Shown here piece by piece: positions 20,082 to 29,178 of a stretch of DNA of 64,000 nt. A program made the translations under genes and the position numbers. The stretch spans positions 1-64,000 of the IMG/VR virus record IMGVR_UViG_3300027836_000009. One strand, 5' to 3'. The notes below the pieces were generated by a model, which ran no database searches, was not told the origin of the DNA, and was given only the letters and a program-made list of their open reading frames with translations. The stretch is from a virus. The number at the start of each line of letters is the position of its first letter. Within the stretch, counting starts at the first letter, position 1.

Positions 20082-21236
20082 ATGTCATTACTAAATTACC
20101 AAGATTTCTTATTTGAAACATACGGCAAAATAAAATTGAGTGAAGCTCGTGAAAACTTGTTGAGAACAATATCAAAGTCGTATCTTTTAGAAGAAGAACA
20201 GTATGTTTTAGATTTTGTTATTCAAGAAGGCTTAACCAACGATTTCTTTTCGTTATATGAATCAAACGATGATATTATTCAAGAAAATTTTATTCAAAAA
20301 GCTAAAGAAAGATACGATAGAGCTAAAGAAGAAATAAAATCTCGCGGTAAAGAAGCACTCGATAAAATGAGTGATGCTACTAAAAATCTGGTTCAAGTTG
20401 GTGGAAACATATTAAAGCCAATTAAAACAATAATGCAAAAAATTGGTGAAGCAATTAAAAAGGCTTGGGAAGAAGCAAAAGCAATTGCGAATGAAGCAGT
20501 AAACAAGTATAAAGATAAGATATCCGAGAAAATCAAAAACTTAATTAAAGATAGCGATAAAAAGAAAAAGCTTAAAGACGAATTAAAAAATTTAGGCGAG
20601 ATGATTAGCGCAGGCACAAAGTACATCACAAGCGGTTTTTCTACTGACGCTGAAAAAGCTGCAGCTGCTGCTGCCTCATCTGATGATAAAAATGAATCTT
20701 TTTTAAACTACATTGAGTATGCAATATTAAACGAAATAACATCGGAAATTAATAAAGGCGTAAACATTGATGATATAATTGAATCCCTTAATGAAGAAGG
20801 ACACGGTCACGAGAAAAAAGGAGGGTTAAACATTCCCTTTGTAAGTAAAGTGATGAGCAAAATAGGTCATATGCCTCCGTTTAAATACTTTCACGATTTA
20901 GGCGCAAAAGCTGAAGATTTTACAAATAACAAATTATCACGAGCAAGTTTCTTAGTAAATAAAGTTGCTGATGGGCCTGCTCCTTATGAATATGTTGTTT
21001 TTGGATCTCTCGTTGGTGTTGCTGTTGGTTATTACACTGAAACATTTGCTAAAACTGGTGCTTTAGGCATACTTGCTGAATTTGGTATTCCAGGACTAGT
21101 CATTTTAAAAAGTTTAATTGGTGGAATAGGTCTTGCTTTAGCAATTTACGGAATTGCTGAATCCTTAGTTGGTAGCGAAGGCGAAGAGAAAAAGGAAGAA
21201 GAGAAGGAAGAAGACGAAAAAAAAGAAGAAGAATAA
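20082..21236 (+). CDS. Capsid-targeted helical membrane protein with acidic tail
   Basis: Leader MSLLNYQDFLFE ends in L-F-E, a gp21-type cleavage site. Residues about 70-185 are Lys/Glu/Ala-rich amphipathic helices, likely coiled coil. Residues about 300-362 contain two or three hydrophobic segments (VVFGSLVGVAVGYY, LVILKSLIGGIGLALAIYG). The C-terminus is an EEKKEEE-type acidic tail. A packaged protein with membrane segments would suit delivery into or across the host inner membrane during infection. That role is inference; no enzyme motif is visible. Confidence 0.7.
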   Translation: MSLLNYQDFLFETYGKIKLSEARENLLRTISKSYLLEEEQYVLDFVIQEGLTNDFFSLYESNDDIIQENFIQKAKERYDRAKEEIKSRGKEALDKMSDATKNLVQVGGNILKPIKTIMQKIGEAIKKAWEEAKAIANEAVNKYKDKISEKIKNLIKDSDKKKKLKDELKNLGEMISAGTKYITSGFSTDAEKAAAAAASSDDKNESFLNYIEYAILNEITSEINKGVNIDDIIESLNEEGHGHEKKGGLNIPFVSKVMSKIGHMPPFKYFHDLGAKAEDFTNNKLSRASFLVNKVADGPAPYEYVVFGSLVGVAVGYYTETFAKTGALGILAEFGIPGLVILKSLIGGIGLALAIYGIAESLVGSEGEEKKEEEKEEDEKKEEE

Positions 21237-22306
21237 TGACATTAAAACTTTACGAACAGTGGTTACTGACTGAAGGTGGCTGGGCTACAACAAAAACACA
21301 AGGGACAGTTATCAAGCCTCTTATTATTGCTGACTGCGTTAAAAAGACACGAGTTATTGCTGAAGAGTTTGCAGCTCACTGTAAAACTGTTGAACTGCCG
21401 CCTCTTGAATTTACAAAGCCAATCGGCAGCGGTACATGGTATGAAGAAGATATCGTATCACAGCCTGACAAAGTTTACGGAGACGTAGACTTTATGGTGT
21501 CTTATCCTGTTTTGGAATTAACAGGGAAAGATCGTCGTGCTGATGAAATCGCAACGGTTAAACTTTACAATAAAGAACTGATTGACTTCTTAAAGAATAA
21601 AAGATATTCGTTTATTGATATTGCTGAAACAATGACAGTTTCAAATGATGTATCATTAAAGTTTATTATGGAAGTTGAAACACCTGAAGGTGAAGGATGG
21701 ATTCAAGTAGACATTGTTGTTACGCATACTGATTATAAAGAATGGGCAATCTTTAGAATGACTCCTATTCGTAATGTAAAAGGATTTGTACTTGGTAACT
21801 TATATTCTTCTTTTGGAGAAGTTCTTGAAGTAAGTATTCAGCCTCGTGGAGTTAGAGCAAAATTTGCTGGTACTCAAATGGTTGCATATAGTAAAAGAGC
21901 TGGTACTGAGGAAAAACTTCTTACAGCAAACATTCAAACATTTATGCATGATATTGCTCGATTCTTTTGGGAAACAAGTGGCACTGATAAACCTTATGAA
22001 GAATCGTCTTCATTAAAAAGATGGAAAGGTATCAATCCACAGAACCCACGTTTTGAAGATCTTTGTGATGGGATTCGTGGAGTTGCTGAAACACTTGAGC
22101 AACTTGGTGAATTTGGCAGTGTTATCAAATATAAATCAGCAAAAGAATTATTAGATGCAGTAAAGAAGAGATATATAGAAAAGATGGAAACTGCAGGTAA
22201 CGCAGAGAAATTAAACAAAGCTGAAACGCCATCGGCAATTGCAGCTGCTGAAAAATTACGTAAGTTTGTTAAGGATTACACCGAATTAGCAGACAAGCTA
22301 TTATAA
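21236..22306 (+). CDS. Capsid-targeted nucleotidyltransferase-fold protein
   Basis: The leader LKLYEQWLLTEGG fits the shared targeting sequence with an L-T-E site at 11-13. The body has a polymerase-beta-type nucleotidyltransferase pattern: IGSGTW (63-68, GS loop), GDVDF with Asp83 and Asp85, and WIQVDIVV with a third carboxylate Asp159. The C-terminal half is helical. It could transfer NMP to RNA, protein or a small molecule. The family includes CCA-adding, oligoadenylate-type, antibiotic and MNT-type enzymes, and I cannot place it further. It is coupled to the preceding targeted gene (TAATG). Delivery with the genome, as for T4 Alt, is the inferred mode. Confidence 0.65.
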   Translation: MTLKLYEQWLLTEGGWATTKTQGTVIKPLIIADCVKKTRVIAEEFAAHCKTVELPPLEFTKPIGSGTWYEEDIVSQPDKVYGDVDFMVSYPVLELTGKDRRADEIATVKLYNKELIDFLKNKRYSFIDIAETMTVSNDVSLKFIMEVETPEGEGWIQVDIVVTHTDYKEWAIFRMTPIRNVKGFVLGNLYSSFGEVLEVSIQPRGVRAKFAGTQMVAYSKRAGTEEKLLTANIQTFMHDIARFFWETSGTDKPYEESSSLKRWKGINPQNPRFEDLCDGIRGVAETLEQLGEFGSVIKYKSAKELLDAVKKRYIEKMETAGNAEKLNKAETPSAIAAAEKLRKFVKDYTELADKLL

Positions 22307-23232: not shown

Positions 23233-23430
23233 ATGAAATACATTAAAACATTTGAAGCTTATTTGAATGAGCTTGAACTTCCTTTAAAAGGTGAAGACGA
23301 AAACACAAAAGGCAATAAAGACGTTGCAGCTGGTGAAGAAGAAGATGTAGTGAAAGGCGATGAAAAAGCTGACGCTAAAGGCGAAGAGGAAGAAGAGAAA
23401 GAAGAAGAAATTGATGCTGACGAAGCATAA
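23233..23430 (+). CDS. Capsid-targeted highly acidic small protein (65 aa)
   Basis: Leader MKYIKTFEAYLNE with L-N-E at 11-13. After the predicted cut the protein is almost entirely Glu/Asp/Lys (EEEEEKEEEID...). Such an acidic polypeptide may help condense counter-ions or space packaged DNA. It starts 3 nt after the holin-like gene. Confidence 0.7.
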   Translation: MKYIKTFEAYLNELELPLKGEDENTKGNKDVAAGEEEDVVKGDEKADAKGEEEEEKEEEIDADEA

Positions 23431-23444
23431 AATTATTTTATACA

Positions 23445-23819
23445 ATGAAAAACTTACAAACATACCAAGAATTCTTAAATGAACAAGAAGAAATTCTAAA
23501 CGAAGACATCAATTTGATAACAACAGTTATGTTGCTAGGTCAGGCTACGATTGTTGCAGCTGCAGTAATGGCAAGAGCGGGATATGATACACCCGATGAA
23601 AAATTAGCAGAGTGGTGGAATAAATGGAAAAGAGATCGTAGAGTTAATAAGATTTTAGATAAACTTAATGCTGATTCAGAAGTTCAACAATTTCTTACAT
23701 TGCCTCCTAAAGAACAAGAAGGTAAATGGAAAAAACTTGTAGATACAAAACTTAATAAAGAGGATAAAGATCTTCTTAATTCAATTTCTAGAGACCGAGT
23801 TAAAAAAGGTAAAATATAA
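23445..23819 (+). CDS. Capsid-targeted small protein with hydrophobic segment (124 aa)
   Basis: Leader MKNLQTYQEFLNE is the closest in the window to the T4 internal protein start (TYQEF) and ends in L-N-E. A hydrophobic stretch TTVMLLGQATIVAAAVMA (about 26-43) may be a membrane segment. The rest is Lys/Asp-rich helix. Its stop overlaps the next start (TAATG). Confidence 0.7.
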   Translation: MKNLQTYQEFLNEQEEILNEDINLITTVMLLGQATIVAAAVMARAGYDTPDEKLAEWWNKWKRDRRVNKILDKLNADSEVQQFLTLPPKEQEGKWKKLVDTKLNKEDKDLLNSISRDRVKKGKI

Positions 23820-24280
23820 TGAAACACATAAAAACATTTGAGTCATACGTTAAAGAAGGCGTTGAGAAAAACAGCAAAGTTCTTGAATCCGAAGAATCTG
23901 TAAATGAATCAACAGATATAGATGTATCTGCATTAAGCGATGGTATGCTAAAAGAATTACGTAAGGTATTTAACGGTGTAAAGCATGGACTGTCTAATAA
24001 CGATTTACAGTTATTAGCAAAGATTACGATGGAGATCAAGAAAAGAGGTATTAAAGAATCTGTAGATGAATCTGTTATTAATGAAGGTATCATGTCATTA
24101 ACCGCATACTATAAGGATTATGATAGAGATGTAACTACTCCTGCTAAGAAAATTGATGATATACTTAATAAAGAAATTAAATCAGTTAGTAGCAAAAATG
24201 CTGTATTAGATTTGATTACTGATTTGGTTGAAGAATATGCAGTTGAATATGCAGACAACCGAGATCAAGAAAGATATTAA
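23819..24280 (+). CDS. Capsid-targeted protein (153 aa)
   Basis: Leader MKHIKTFESYVKE with V-K-E at 11-13. The remainder is helical and charged with a further potential I-N-E site (VINEGIM). No enzymatic motif is recognised. Confidence 0.7.
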   Translation: MKHIKTFESYVKEGVEKNSKVLESEESVNESTDIDVSALSDGMLKELRKVFNGVKHGLSNNDLQLLAKITMEIKKRGIKESVDESVINEGIMSLTAYYKDYDRDVTTPAKKIDDILNKEIKSVSSKNAVLDLITDLVEEYAVEYADNRDQERY

Positions 24281-24293
24281 AAATAAAATAAAA

Positions 24294-24599
24294 ATGAAAA
24301 ATATACACACATTTGAAGAGTTCTTAAATGAAGGAAAAGTTTCTTTTTCTAAAATGGAATTCACAGTAGCTTCGTTTGTAGATAACAAAGGACTTGCTAT
24401 TCAGTTTCTAGCAAATAATAAAACTTTAGACAATTTTAGTGCTAATGCAATGGTAAATGCAATAACTGCAATGATAAACAAAAACATATCTGACTTAAAT
24501 GGACTTTTATATTATGAAATTGGTAATGTAGCTGCAGGTATAGTATTTAGATTAGATCAATATGAATTTGGTAAAATGATAGAAAAACGACTTAAATAA
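24294..24599 (+). CDS. Capsid-targeted protein (101 aa)
   Basis: ATG 24294 is chosen because it yields the leader MKNIHTFEEFLNE (L-N-E at 11-13); an upstream in-frame ATG at 24228 lies within the previous gene. After the leader follows a compact alpha/beta domain without recognised motif. Confidence 0.7.
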   Translation: MKNIHTFEEFLNEGKVSFSKMEFTVASFVDNKGLAIQFLANNKTLDNFSANAMVNAITAMINKNISDLNGLLYYEIGNVAAGIVFRLDQYEFGKMIEKRLK

Positions 24600-24600
24600 T

Positions 24601-25146
24601 ATGAAATACGTACATACATTTGAAAGTTTCTTAAATGAAAAATTTGCTGATAAATATCCTAAGCAAATGTATATTGAACTACAGCCTAATGACATTTCTG
24701 ATTATGCTGATGAATTAGCAAATCTTGTAAATGTAGCATATGCTGATAAAGGCGGTAATCTTGAAATTAAGAACGGCGCAGATTTAAGAAAGTCTGACAT
24801 TACTTATTGGGTAGCAAAAGATATTGATGAAGATCCTAATGCAGATGTTGCAGTTGGAGGTAAGAAAACACCACATGGTGTTAAGATGACAGTTATGGGC
24901 CAAGATGGTTCTCGTGAAGCAAAAAAGGACGCAATCTTAAAAATGATTGAACTTATGAAGACTCGTGGTTTTTATGCTGAACTTGATACTGACTTAGCAC
25001 AAAAGTTAAATCTTACTCACGTTAAAGACGAAAAGAAAATACGTGATGTATTAAACAAAGACATTACTTATTTTAAAGACGGATCTTATGATCGTGATAT
25101 TGCTGGAGATACACATAGAAAAGTTCTTGTAGGAATGCCAAAATAA
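24601..25146 (+). CDS. Capsid-targeted protein, possibly acetyltransferase-like fold (181 aa)
   Basis: Leader MKYVHTFESFLNE with L-N-E at 11-13. The body has DELANLVNVAYADKGGN, a WVAKDIDEDPNADV strand pair and DGSREAKKDAILKMIELM, an order loosely reminiscent of GNAT acetyltransferases. The acetyl-CoA loop is not convincing, so the fold call is weak. It begins on the base after the upstream stop plus one. Confidence 0.65.
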   Translation: MKYVHTFESFLNEKFADKYPKQMYIELQPNDISDYADELANLVNVAYADKGGNLEIKNGADLRKSDITYWVAKDIDEDPNADVAVGGKKTPHGVKMTVMGQDGSREAKKDAILKMIELMKTRGFYAELDTDLAQKLNLTHVKDEKKIRDVLNKDITYFKDGSYDRDIAGDTHRKVLVGMPK

Positions 25147-25154
25147 TTCTAATC

Positions 25155-25859
25155 ATGAAATACATTAATAATTTTTCGGGTTGGGTTAACGAAAGTGTAT
25201 CAAGCAATGAAGCTGATAAAATCGTTTATGGAAATCAGCCAAAAGATTTACAAAAGTTAGCAGACGATAAAAACGATCCTATAAAAAATTGGTTTATAGA
25301 AAAAGGATTCGTTGATACGATTGTAAAAGAAACACCACTTAATAGCGGATCTCAAACAAGAAAAGATCTTGATACTATAGTTGAGAAAATGTCAAAAGCT
25401 ACGCCTGAAGATTTAGCGTTTGCTCGTTACATAGATGATGAAGCAAATATATCAAAAACTTTTATTGATTTATTAGGTAAATACGGACATAAAGTTTTTG
25501 AAGAAGAACATTTGTTTGTTGAAACTCAATCCGACGCAATCTTATTTTATTTAAAAGACGTAATTAATAGACCAAGACCGTATCAACTTGCTTATTATTA
25601 TAAAATTGATTTATACCCACTTATCAGAACTAACGCAATGACAGCTTCTTATCCAAGTGGACATGCTTTAGCAGGTATTATGATGAGTGAACATTACGCA
25701 AAACTTTATCCTGATGCTTCAGTTGAATTAAAAGAATTAGGAAACAAAATTGCTAACAGTAGAGAACTAACAGGAATTCATTATTCTTCTGATACAGAAA
25801 TATCTCGTAAGATATCAAAAATCATTATTGATAATAACTTGCTACAAATAAAAAAATGA
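25155..25859 (+). CDS. Capsid-targeted PAP2-family phosphatase
   Basis: Leader MKYINNFSGWVNE ends in V-N-E. All three PAP2/acid phosphatase motifs are intact: K-x6-RP (Lys134, Arg141, Pro142), PSGH (167-170) and SR-x5-H-x3-D (Ser202, Arg203, His209, Asp213). Histidine-based phosphoester hydrolysis is therefore expected. There are no multiple membrane helices, so it resembles soluble class A acid phosphatases rather than integral lipid phosphatases. Possible targets are nucleotides, lipid-linked phosphates or phospholipids at the entry site. Being packaged is inferred from the leader and neighbours. Confidence 0.85.
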   Translation: MKYINNFSGWVNESVSSNEADKIVYGNQPKDLQKLADDKNDPIKNWFIEKGFVDTIVKETPLNSGSQTRKDLDTIVEKMSKATPEDLAFARYIDDEANISKTFIDLLGKYGHKVFEEEHLFVETQSDAILFYLKDVINRPRPYQLAYYYKIDLYPLIRTNAMTASYPSGHALAGIMMSEHYAKLYPDASVELKELGNKIANSRELTGIHYSSDTEISRKISKIIIDNNLLQIKK

Positions 25860-27387: not shown

Positions 27388-29178
27388 ATGAGTCTTTTAA
27401 ACTACCAAAAATTTATATTAAATGAAGTTAGTATATTTAAAGATAAGTATAAAAAAGGAGGAGGTAAAAGTTTTACATTAAACACAACGTCTTCAAATTC
27501 AGACGCTGTAGAATTTGCGAATTTAATTATTGCTCAAGGAGCTGACGGAAATGGTGAATATCAAAGAGTTGATTATGATGAAAACGCGCCTACTATTAAT
27601 TGGAAAGGGGGAACAACGCATTCTATAACTATAGAAGATAAAAACGGTAAACGATTTAATCTATCATCTAATAGTAAAGATATATTGGGATATGTTTGTT
27701 TGGAATATAGCGAAAAATCTTTAGGCGGGAAACTTGATGCTGCAAAATATGAACAAGGAATTGTTTACTTTTATAATACTCAAGTTATGGGATTAGACGA
27801 AGATCAAGCTATTGCGCAAGGATCTCTTAATGATTCTGATACAGGATGGTTTACTAAACTTGAGAAAACATGTTTAGGCGTTGCTAAACAATTAGATTCT
27901 AATTTAGGACCTTTAATTTGGTCAGGAAGCGATTCTGTAAATACTAGTGCTGACTGGAAAAGCAGCGATAAAACGCCTAAGACTGACGTATATTCAGGAA
28001 AATCAAATAGCGGTAAGTTTTCTGTTAAAAAAACAGGTGGCTCACAATTAATGAGCGGGACTACTGAAGCAAAAGATGTGTTTAACGCTGCGCTTCAATA
28101 CTATAATCACTTTGAGAAAAAGAAATCTATCGTGTCTCCTGCTTTTATTGAAAATTTATCAAAAAAGGTTTCATATGTAGTTAAATCTGAAGAAGGCATT
28201 CAAAAACTTAAAGCAAATGCTCAAGAAGCATGGGTTTCTTTTAGATTAGGAACAGTATTAGATACAATACGCAAAAATAAACTTACATTGCCTATTGTTT
28301 TTCAAAAAGATCCAAATCGCCCAGCAACTGATAAAGCAATATCTGACGCAGCAGACGCTCACACAAAAGCTGAATTTGCATCAGCAGGAATTGGTGATAG
28401 ACGTGGAAATTGGGAAAGCAATTTAATTAAAGGCATTGATGACGGCCAGAAAATTTTTAATGGCTGGTGGGAAAAATCTTATTTGCCTACATTAGCATCT
28501 GTGCAGAAAGATGTATTATTAACAACCGTTTTAGAAGCTACTCAAGATCATCGTGAAGTACAAGAATCTTTAAGGGATGTTTTTCAAAATGATCCTGATT
28601 TTTTAAAGTGGCTTATTTATGAAGCCGCAACAGGGCAAGTAAAATTTAGCGGAAATGTCAATATTGATTCATCCACTGGTGTTACAGCAATTGCTGATAA
28701 GTTTTTGATATTTAATGATACTGGACTTGCTGAGCCTATTGCACCAATTACTATTGGATGGGCTAAGGATCATATTAAAGAAGTTAAAACAACGGTAGGG
28801 TTTAAGTCATCAGGAAGTAGGTCAGCTTCATCTATAAGATTAGCGATAGGTGGTAAATTAGACGAAAGTGAATCTCTTCAATTATCAGGCATGGAAAGAA
28901 TAATTTTTGAAGAATTTAATAAACTAAATAATGATTTATTAGCATTAAATGAATCCTTTATTGATTCTTTTAAGAAAACACTTAATAACGTAAAAACTTT
29001 TGCGGCTCAAACTTGGACTGCTGTGACAAACGCAATTTCTTATTTTTATCAAAATATAATAGTAAGAATTTCTAAAGCATTTACAGATGTATTCAGTCAA
29101 GGAATTGATGCTATATGTAGTTTTTTTGGTTTTACAATAGACGGAGCAGTTGACGGAGAAATTAACATAAGTTTTTAA
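27388..29178 (+). CDS. Large capsid-targeted protein with nuclease-like motif (596 aa)
   Basis: Leader MSLLNYQKFILNE (L-N-E at 11-13) is close to that of the 20082 gene. The segment TPKTDVYSGKSNSGKFSVKKTGGSQLMSG (Asp200, Lys214) resembles the TPKTD...SLKK...QLMSG core of PD-(D/E)XK-like phage nucleases, with Ser in place of the second acidic residue. The C-terminal 100 residues hold hydrophobic helices (FAAQTWTAVTNAISYFY), perhaps a membrane-active part. It may be a nuclease delivered with the genome; catalytic competence is uncertain. Confidence 0.6.
   Translation: MSLLNYQKFILNEVSIFKDKYKKGGGKSFTLNTTSSNSDAVEFANLIIAQGADGNGEYQRVDYDENAPTINWKGGTTHSITIEDKNGKRFNLSSNSKDILGYVCLEYSEKSLGGKLDAAKYEQGIVYFYNTQVMGLDEDQAIAQGSLNDSDTGWFTKLEKTCLGVAKQLDSNLGPLIWSGSDSVNTSADWKSSDKTPKTDVYSGKSNSGKFSVKKTGGSQLMSGTTEAKDVFNAALQYYNHFEKKKSIVSPAFIENLSKKVSYVVKSEEGIQKLKANAQEAWVSFRLGTVLDTIRKNKLTLPIVFQKDPNRPATDKAISDAADAHTKAEFASAGIGDRRGNWESNLIKGIDDGQKIFNGWWEKSYLPTLASVQKDVLLTTVLEATQDHREVQESLRDVFQNDPDFLKWLIYEAATGQVKFSGNVNIDSSTGVTAIADKFLIFNDTGLAEPIAPITIGWAKDHIKEVKTTVGFKSSGSRSASSIRLAIGGKLDESESLQLSGMERIIFEEFNKLNNDLLALNESFIDSFKKTLNNVKTFAAQTWTAVTNAISYFYQNIIVRISKAFTDVFSQGIDAICSFFGFTIDGAVDGEINISF

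Follow-up and report, generated by a model that had tools for sequence, protein, structure and literature searches.

The phosphatase gene and its leader-bearing neighbors

The window, a stretch of 64,000 nucleotides, is part of a linear virus record of 92,113 bases (IMG/VR record IMGVR_UViG_3300027836_000009) and encodes on its plus strand a complete, 234-residue PAP2/class A-type phosphatase ORF (positions 25155–25859). Upstream of the ORF, the frame stays open for only 12 more codons (246 in total), and no start earlier than 25155 is given for this gene in the ORF listing. All residues of the three catalytic motifs are present on the same strand: K134-x6-R141-P142 (motif 1, K-x6-RP, 25554–25580), P167-S-G-H170 (motif 2, PSGH, 25653–25664), and S202-R203-x5-H209-x3-D213 (motif 3, SR-x5-H-x3-D, 25758–25793), as a sequence-only reading of this DNA had described. 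The two spacers of 24 and 31 residues lie within the limits of the class A acid phosphatase signature, KX6RP-(X12-54)-PSGH-(X31-54)-SRX5HX3D (PMC12356135), and shuffling the protein 200,000 times never reproduced the full motif. The Pfam PAP2 domain (PF01569) aligns to residues 128–217 with a score of 25.9 bits (E 8.8e-6), compared with a gathering cut-off of 27.2, and the relatives at loci L015, L003, and L002 score above the cut-off (34.1, 33.6, and 34.9 bits, respectively).

The first 13 codons (25155–25193, plus strand) encode a putative T4-type capsid-targeting (CTS) leader, MKYINNFSGWVNE, which, again as previously read, ends in V-N-E (residues 11–13) and for which cleavage is predicted after E13. 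Similar leaders are found on nearby genes. An N-terminal [FY]xx[FYW][ILVM]xE pattern was detected in 8 of the 89 gene-like ORFs in the 92-kb record, whereas its frequency at internal positions (7 in 24,273) would predict 0.2. The eight leaders are similar, however, and may have been copied from one another, so that they do not count as eight independent events. Six of the eight ORFs are consecutive, spanning positions 23233 to 25859.

The five ORFs preceding the phosphatase gene in this run are, like all neighbors described here, on the plus strand. Directly upstream is a 181-residue ORF with the leader MKYVHTFESFLNE (24601–25146), for which an equal-length, leader-bearing ORF exists at L002:8962-9507. 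It is preceded by an ORF with MKNIHTFEEFLNE (24294–24599), which begins at an internal ATG of ORF 24228–24599, by ORFs with MKHIKTFESYVKE (23819–24280) and MKNLQTYQEFLNE (23445–23819), and by a 65-residue ORF with MKYIKTFEAYLNE (23233–23430), which has a very acidic tail and is reminiscent of the T4 core protein gp67. Farther away are a 384-residue ORF with the leader MSLLNYQDFLFE and weak tape-measure-type matches (20082–21236) and a 596-residue ORF with the leader-like MSLLNYQKFILNE (27388–29178), for which no relatives were found in the viral contigs scanned. A 356-residue ORF with the leader-like MTLKLYEQWLLTE (21236–22306) has leader-bearing counterparts at L002:1785-2852 (YENWLAE) and L001:7058-8215 (FEQWLVE). 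These three proteins share a conserved GSGTWYE...DVDFMV sequence with the appearance of a nucleotidyltransferase core; neither Pfam nor a named PHROG matches them, and the window copy has no relative among the phage records.

Relatives, predicted fold, and nearest enzymes

Searching with a core alignment of the first relatives identified 40 loci on uncultured viral contigs; together with the window's own protein and one genome-contig match, these gave 23 distinct complete proteins after removal of near-duplicates and one truncated copy. The 25 aligned relatives are 22–53% identical to the window protein. The columns invariant among the 25 aligned sequences are K134, R139, R141, P142, Y166, P167, S168, G169, H170, R203, H209, S212, and D213, which include every motif residue except S202. 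The invariant columns thus comprise the active site and almost nothing else, which argues for a catalytic enzyme under selection.

A tblastn search of 50,697 phage records with five family members detected no orthologue in isolated phages, and two scans of 84,980 species genomes yielded a single distant match, L056, on a contig binned as an alphaproteobacterial MAG. Weak matches among the phage records, including “BcrC” from Acinetobacter phages and one from a Salmonella record, are partial alignments with approximately 29–36% identity and were not considered orthologues. PHROGs contains no match for the window protein and no phosphatase family to which it would belong; within the family, 2 of 25 members fall weakly into the unnamed group phrog_13954, and a single tape-measure match looks like chance. 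The literature search found nothing joining PAP2 proteins with capsid targeting; PAP2 and jumbo phages came up together in one paper, on therapeutic Pseudomonas phages. Two relatives differ in architecture. The ORF L045:2032-4374 carries the PAP2 domain fused to approximately 550 further residues behind MKSFRQTIQE, and no phage-record relative was found for it. A short relative without a leader (L048:3764-4321) is flanked by phage structural-type genes and a large-terminase-like ORF, and several short contigs harbor near-identical copies.

The closest solved relatives of the window protein, as determined by phmmer, are class A acid phosphatases. Profile matches are strongest to 7f17 (1.8e-27) and PhoN (2e-15) and weaker to LpxE (3.5e-7) and bromoperoxidases (1e-4). 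An AlphaFold2 model built from 25 sequences has a pLDDT of 93.3 and a pTM of 0.89, with residues 1–5, inside the leader, as the sole stretch below a pLDDT of 50; it superseded a mediocre earlier model built from 5 sequences (pLDDT 70.9). The comparison with class A enzymes by structure prediction that the sequence-only reading had proposed gave PhoN (2akc) as the best match (Z 18.2, 2.7 Å over 182 residues), followed by other class A enzymes mostly at Z 17–18, whereas vanadium haloperoxidases reach at most 16.5 (bacterial chloroperoxidase 3w36), LpxE 13.2, and PgpB 10.0. Class A enzymes score less than 2 Z units above the best haloperoxidase, so that structure alone leaves haloperoxidase chemistry possible, and the split is clearer by sequence profile.

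The protein shares the motif, its spacing, and a predicted all-helical soluble fold with the class A phosphatases PhoN, PhoC, Escherichia blattae NSAP, P. aeruginosa 7f17, and M2-32, although identity to these enzymes is only approximately 20% and a putative capsid-targeting leader stands in place of the export signal. The protein has neither a signal peptide nor a hydrophobic N-terminus, it contains no cysteine, and with 0.65 as its highest Kyte-Doolittle mean over 19 residues it has no transmembrane segment; the signal peptide and disulfides that are hallmarks of secreted class A enzymes are therefore both missing. M2-32, in contrast, has two disulfides (PMC12356135), and its substrate-side Tyr136 aligns to Phe131 of the window protein. 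The membrane PAP2 enzymes LpxE, PgpB, and BcrC have the catalytic motif and core helices in common with it but are integral membrane proteins, whereas the window protein is predicted to be soluble. By motif and predicted fold the protein is class A-like, yet not an ordinary secreted member. Motif, family conservation, and class A-like sequence and fold together uphold the earlier assignment to PAP2-type phosphatases.

Putative head-targeting leaders and the phage lineage

In T4, targeting to the head depends on leader residues 4 and 7 and processing on residues 8 and 10, and the protease gp21 cleaves after L/I-X-E (PMC9026906). Positions 4, 7, 8, and 10 align to F7, W10, V11, and E13 of the phosphatase leader, which thus has the form of a short propeptide with aromatics at the targeting positions: F7 and W10 align to Y4 and F7 of the IPIII leader, MKTYQEFIAE as read from the T4 sequence. 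The P3 residue is V, a departure from the T4 rule, and cleavage is accordingly likely but not certain. Leaders of the relatives end in LNE, LSE, IAE, ITE, ISE, INE, and VNE.

The strict leader is present in 10 of the 23 distinct proteins (the window, L001, L002, L003, L015, L019, L021, L022, L028, and L029), and that of L003, MKNYREFIAE, differs from the T4 IPIII leader at 2 of 10 positions. Among the more distant relatives, L031, L033, L046–L048, L053, and L056 have a degenerate leader or none, which indicates that head targeting is not family-wide. In L001, a fused protein of 601 residues has an internal QTFEEFVNE just ahead of the segment preceding the phosphatase domain. In L029, the phosphatase gene is one of five successive genes whose leaders closely resemble each other, and in L026 its leader, VKIELGELRKIIREEI, resembles those of its neighbors, MKIRLGELRRIIREA and MKIRLSQLRKIIREEI. 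Across loci, phosphatase leaders match the leaders of their own neighbors better than those of other loci (summed score 442 compared with 371 under permutation; 60 of 20,000 permutations as high), a signal that reaches significance for the combined loci, though not at the majority of individual ones, and that comes mainly from L020, L022, L026, and L029.

Leaders were also observed on other genes of these contigs. In region L026:2212-5018, the phosphatase gene and at least three of its neighbors have another leader in common, MKIxLxxLRxIIREE, and this leader is probably the head-targeting tag of that lineage. At L015:8264-8608, the leader MKHIQTFESFLNE precedes a GNAT acetyltransferase domain, a candidate packaged enzyme, and at L021:49-1140, MNHVKLFEEFIYE precedes an ATP-grasp-like protein with weak Pfam matches. 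The leader MKTFKEF at L006:1109-1444 is identical to residues 1–7 of T4 IPI.

Head-protease and capsid genes gave no match within the incomplete 92-kb record itself. A sister record (G002), on the other hand, contains a PAP2 gene with the leader MKNYKEFITE together with a gp21-type protease and a gp23-type capsid protein, the latter with relatives in Lak megaphages and Tenacibaculum phages. The protease forms the N-terminal part of a 631-residue protein (phrog_207, 4e-38) and is fused to a scaffold-like region. This fusion contains ten copies of [FY]xx[FYWH][ILVM]xE, all past the protease part, compared with 0.12 in shuffles, and V-A-E is found among these heptads. Another record (G005) has the same arrangement. 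In T4, the head protease cleaves the scaffold into numerous fragments (PMC9026906); in this light, the heptad-studded scaffold-like region ties the leader to head maturation. Head maturation proteases fused to a scaffold-like region were seen on the minus strand of L007 (37–1932) and L060 (274–2145); L007 has ten heptads, of which YxxYLAE and YAEHIAE are examples, with a spacing of mostly 14 residues, and L060 is similar in appearance.

The nearest named relatives of a baseplate protein in the window are from Lak-type megaphages, and this kinship makes a Bacteroidota host likely; the source is a large T4-like phage, probably of Bacteroidota. The arrangement resembles the T4 internal proteins IPI, IPII, IPIII, and Alt in that a short N-terminal propeptide with aromatics and a terminal E is common to otherwise unrelated neighbors, and in that the phosphatase gene belongs to a lineage with T4-type head genes. 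It differs in the cargo, which is a class A-type phosphatase here; in T4, the packaged enzyme Alt has ADP-ribosyltransferase activity, and IPI inhibits a nuclease (PMC9026906, PMC3012670). The N-terminal enrichment of the leader pattern in the record, the T4-like leaders of the relatives, and the protease–scaffold fusion of the sister phage lend weight to the earlier proposal of a head-targeting leader, and targeting of the phosphatase to the head is strongly, if indirectly, supported.

Proposed function and alternative explanations

The gene product is predicted to be a soluble and presumably metal-independent histidine phosphatase with a class A non-specific acid phosphatase fold. By homology to T4, its N-terminal 13 residues would act as a propeptide that binds the prohead core, the head maturation protease would cut after V-N-E, and the mature enzyme (residues 14–234) would remain in the head with the DNA. 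It would then be injected with the genome, be active before any phage gene expression, and remove the terminal phosphate groups of small, soluble phosphomonoesters, the likeliest being mononucleotides or the linear nucleotides that host signaling or damage produces. For this reading as a whole, a head-packaged and injected soluble class A-type phosphatase acting on nucleotide-type phosphomonoesters, we estimate a probability of about 0.62. Regarding the substrate, the class A enzyme M2-32 prefers 3′- and 5′-AMP, and because the class hydrolyzes phosphomonoesters, intact cyclic nucleotides are an unlikely substrate and 3′/5′-mononucleotide-type phosphates a more likely one (PMC12356135). Linear products, mononucleotides, and sugar-nucleotide phosphates could be targets, while opening of cyclic dinucleotides is not expected.

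Packaging could also have a different purpose. The phosphatase might act late in infection within the cell that produces the phage, contributing for instance to nucleotide or phosphate economy, and be packaged only as a by-product, or the leader might function in prohead core assembly alone. T4 IPIII also affects head assembly (PMC9026906), and leaderless relatives exist in other phages (L048 and L053); yet the catalytic residues stay constant where leaders and extra domains change, and a passive core protein would have no need of an active site, so that we regard this explanation as unlikely. Slightly less likely again is that the enzyme is packaged and injected but acts at the envelope, being released into the periplasm at ejection and dephosphorylating lipid A, undecaprenyl-phosphate, or phospholipids. 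LpxE and PgpB do share its fold and motif (Z 13.2 and 10.0), and LpxE is also matched by profile, but the protein has neither a transmembrane segment nor a signal peptide and is clearly nearer to soluble class A enzymes in both sequence and structure. For the same reasons, lipid phosphatase activity was rejected as the first choice, the lipid or undecaprenyl-phosphate targets suggested by the sequence-only reading are disfavored, and a soluble nucleotide-type phosphomonoester appears the likelier substrate.

Two further explanations concern the leader and the chemistry. The leader could be some other shared N-terminal tag rather than a head signal, given that the protein's own 92-kb record has no protease match. 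The near-identity of the L003 leader to the tested T4 IPIII leader and the ten heptad copies in the protease-linked scaffold-like region of G002 make this improbable. Vanadium haloperoxidase-type chemistry is the least probable of all: the fold and catalytic residues are the same and 3w36 reaches Z 16.5, but the profile match is far weaker than that to class A enzymes (1e-4 compared with 1.8e-27), and the listed haloperoxidase chains are 410–640 residues long, compared with 234 for this protein.

If the phosphatase is indeed head-packaged and injected, an anti-defense role may be considered, although by analogy with T4 IPI and IPIII this is a guess. T4 Alt modifies RNA polymerase. T4 IPI blocks a restriction enzyme, and IPIII is needed on strain ECOR17 (PMC9391042). 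A packaged phosphatase might similarly, ahead of phage transcription, erase a phosphorylated nucleotide that a first-line defense of the host uses as a signal or generates as a product, in which case a class A acid phosphatase would have had its export signal swapped for a capsid-targeting leader; we hold this only tentatively and consider it doubtful as it stands. A survey of jumbo phages argued that many phage enzymes target nucleotide signals (PMC7824862). The enzymes proposed there (HD-GYP, HD alarmone, DHH, 2H, calcineurin-like, Nudix, Macro, and NADAR) resemble the present case in their proposed targets, and some are injected, but PAP2 is without mention in that survey of 224 phages (PMC7824862).

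T4-like phages preload their heads with proteins for the first moment of infection, and few of these cargoes have a known biochemical activity. The delivery route proposed here is the known T4-type route rather than a new system; what appears to be new is the cargo class, a class A-type phosphatase, and its occurrence in an uncultured phage group. A head-targeted phosphatase of this type would add a testable enzyme class to the preloaded head cargoes. The leader is also found on at least seven other genes in the record and on acetyltransferase and, weakly, ATP-grasp ORFs in related phages, and may thus offer a straightforward way to list, from sequence, the cargo injected by an uncultured group of Lak-related phages.
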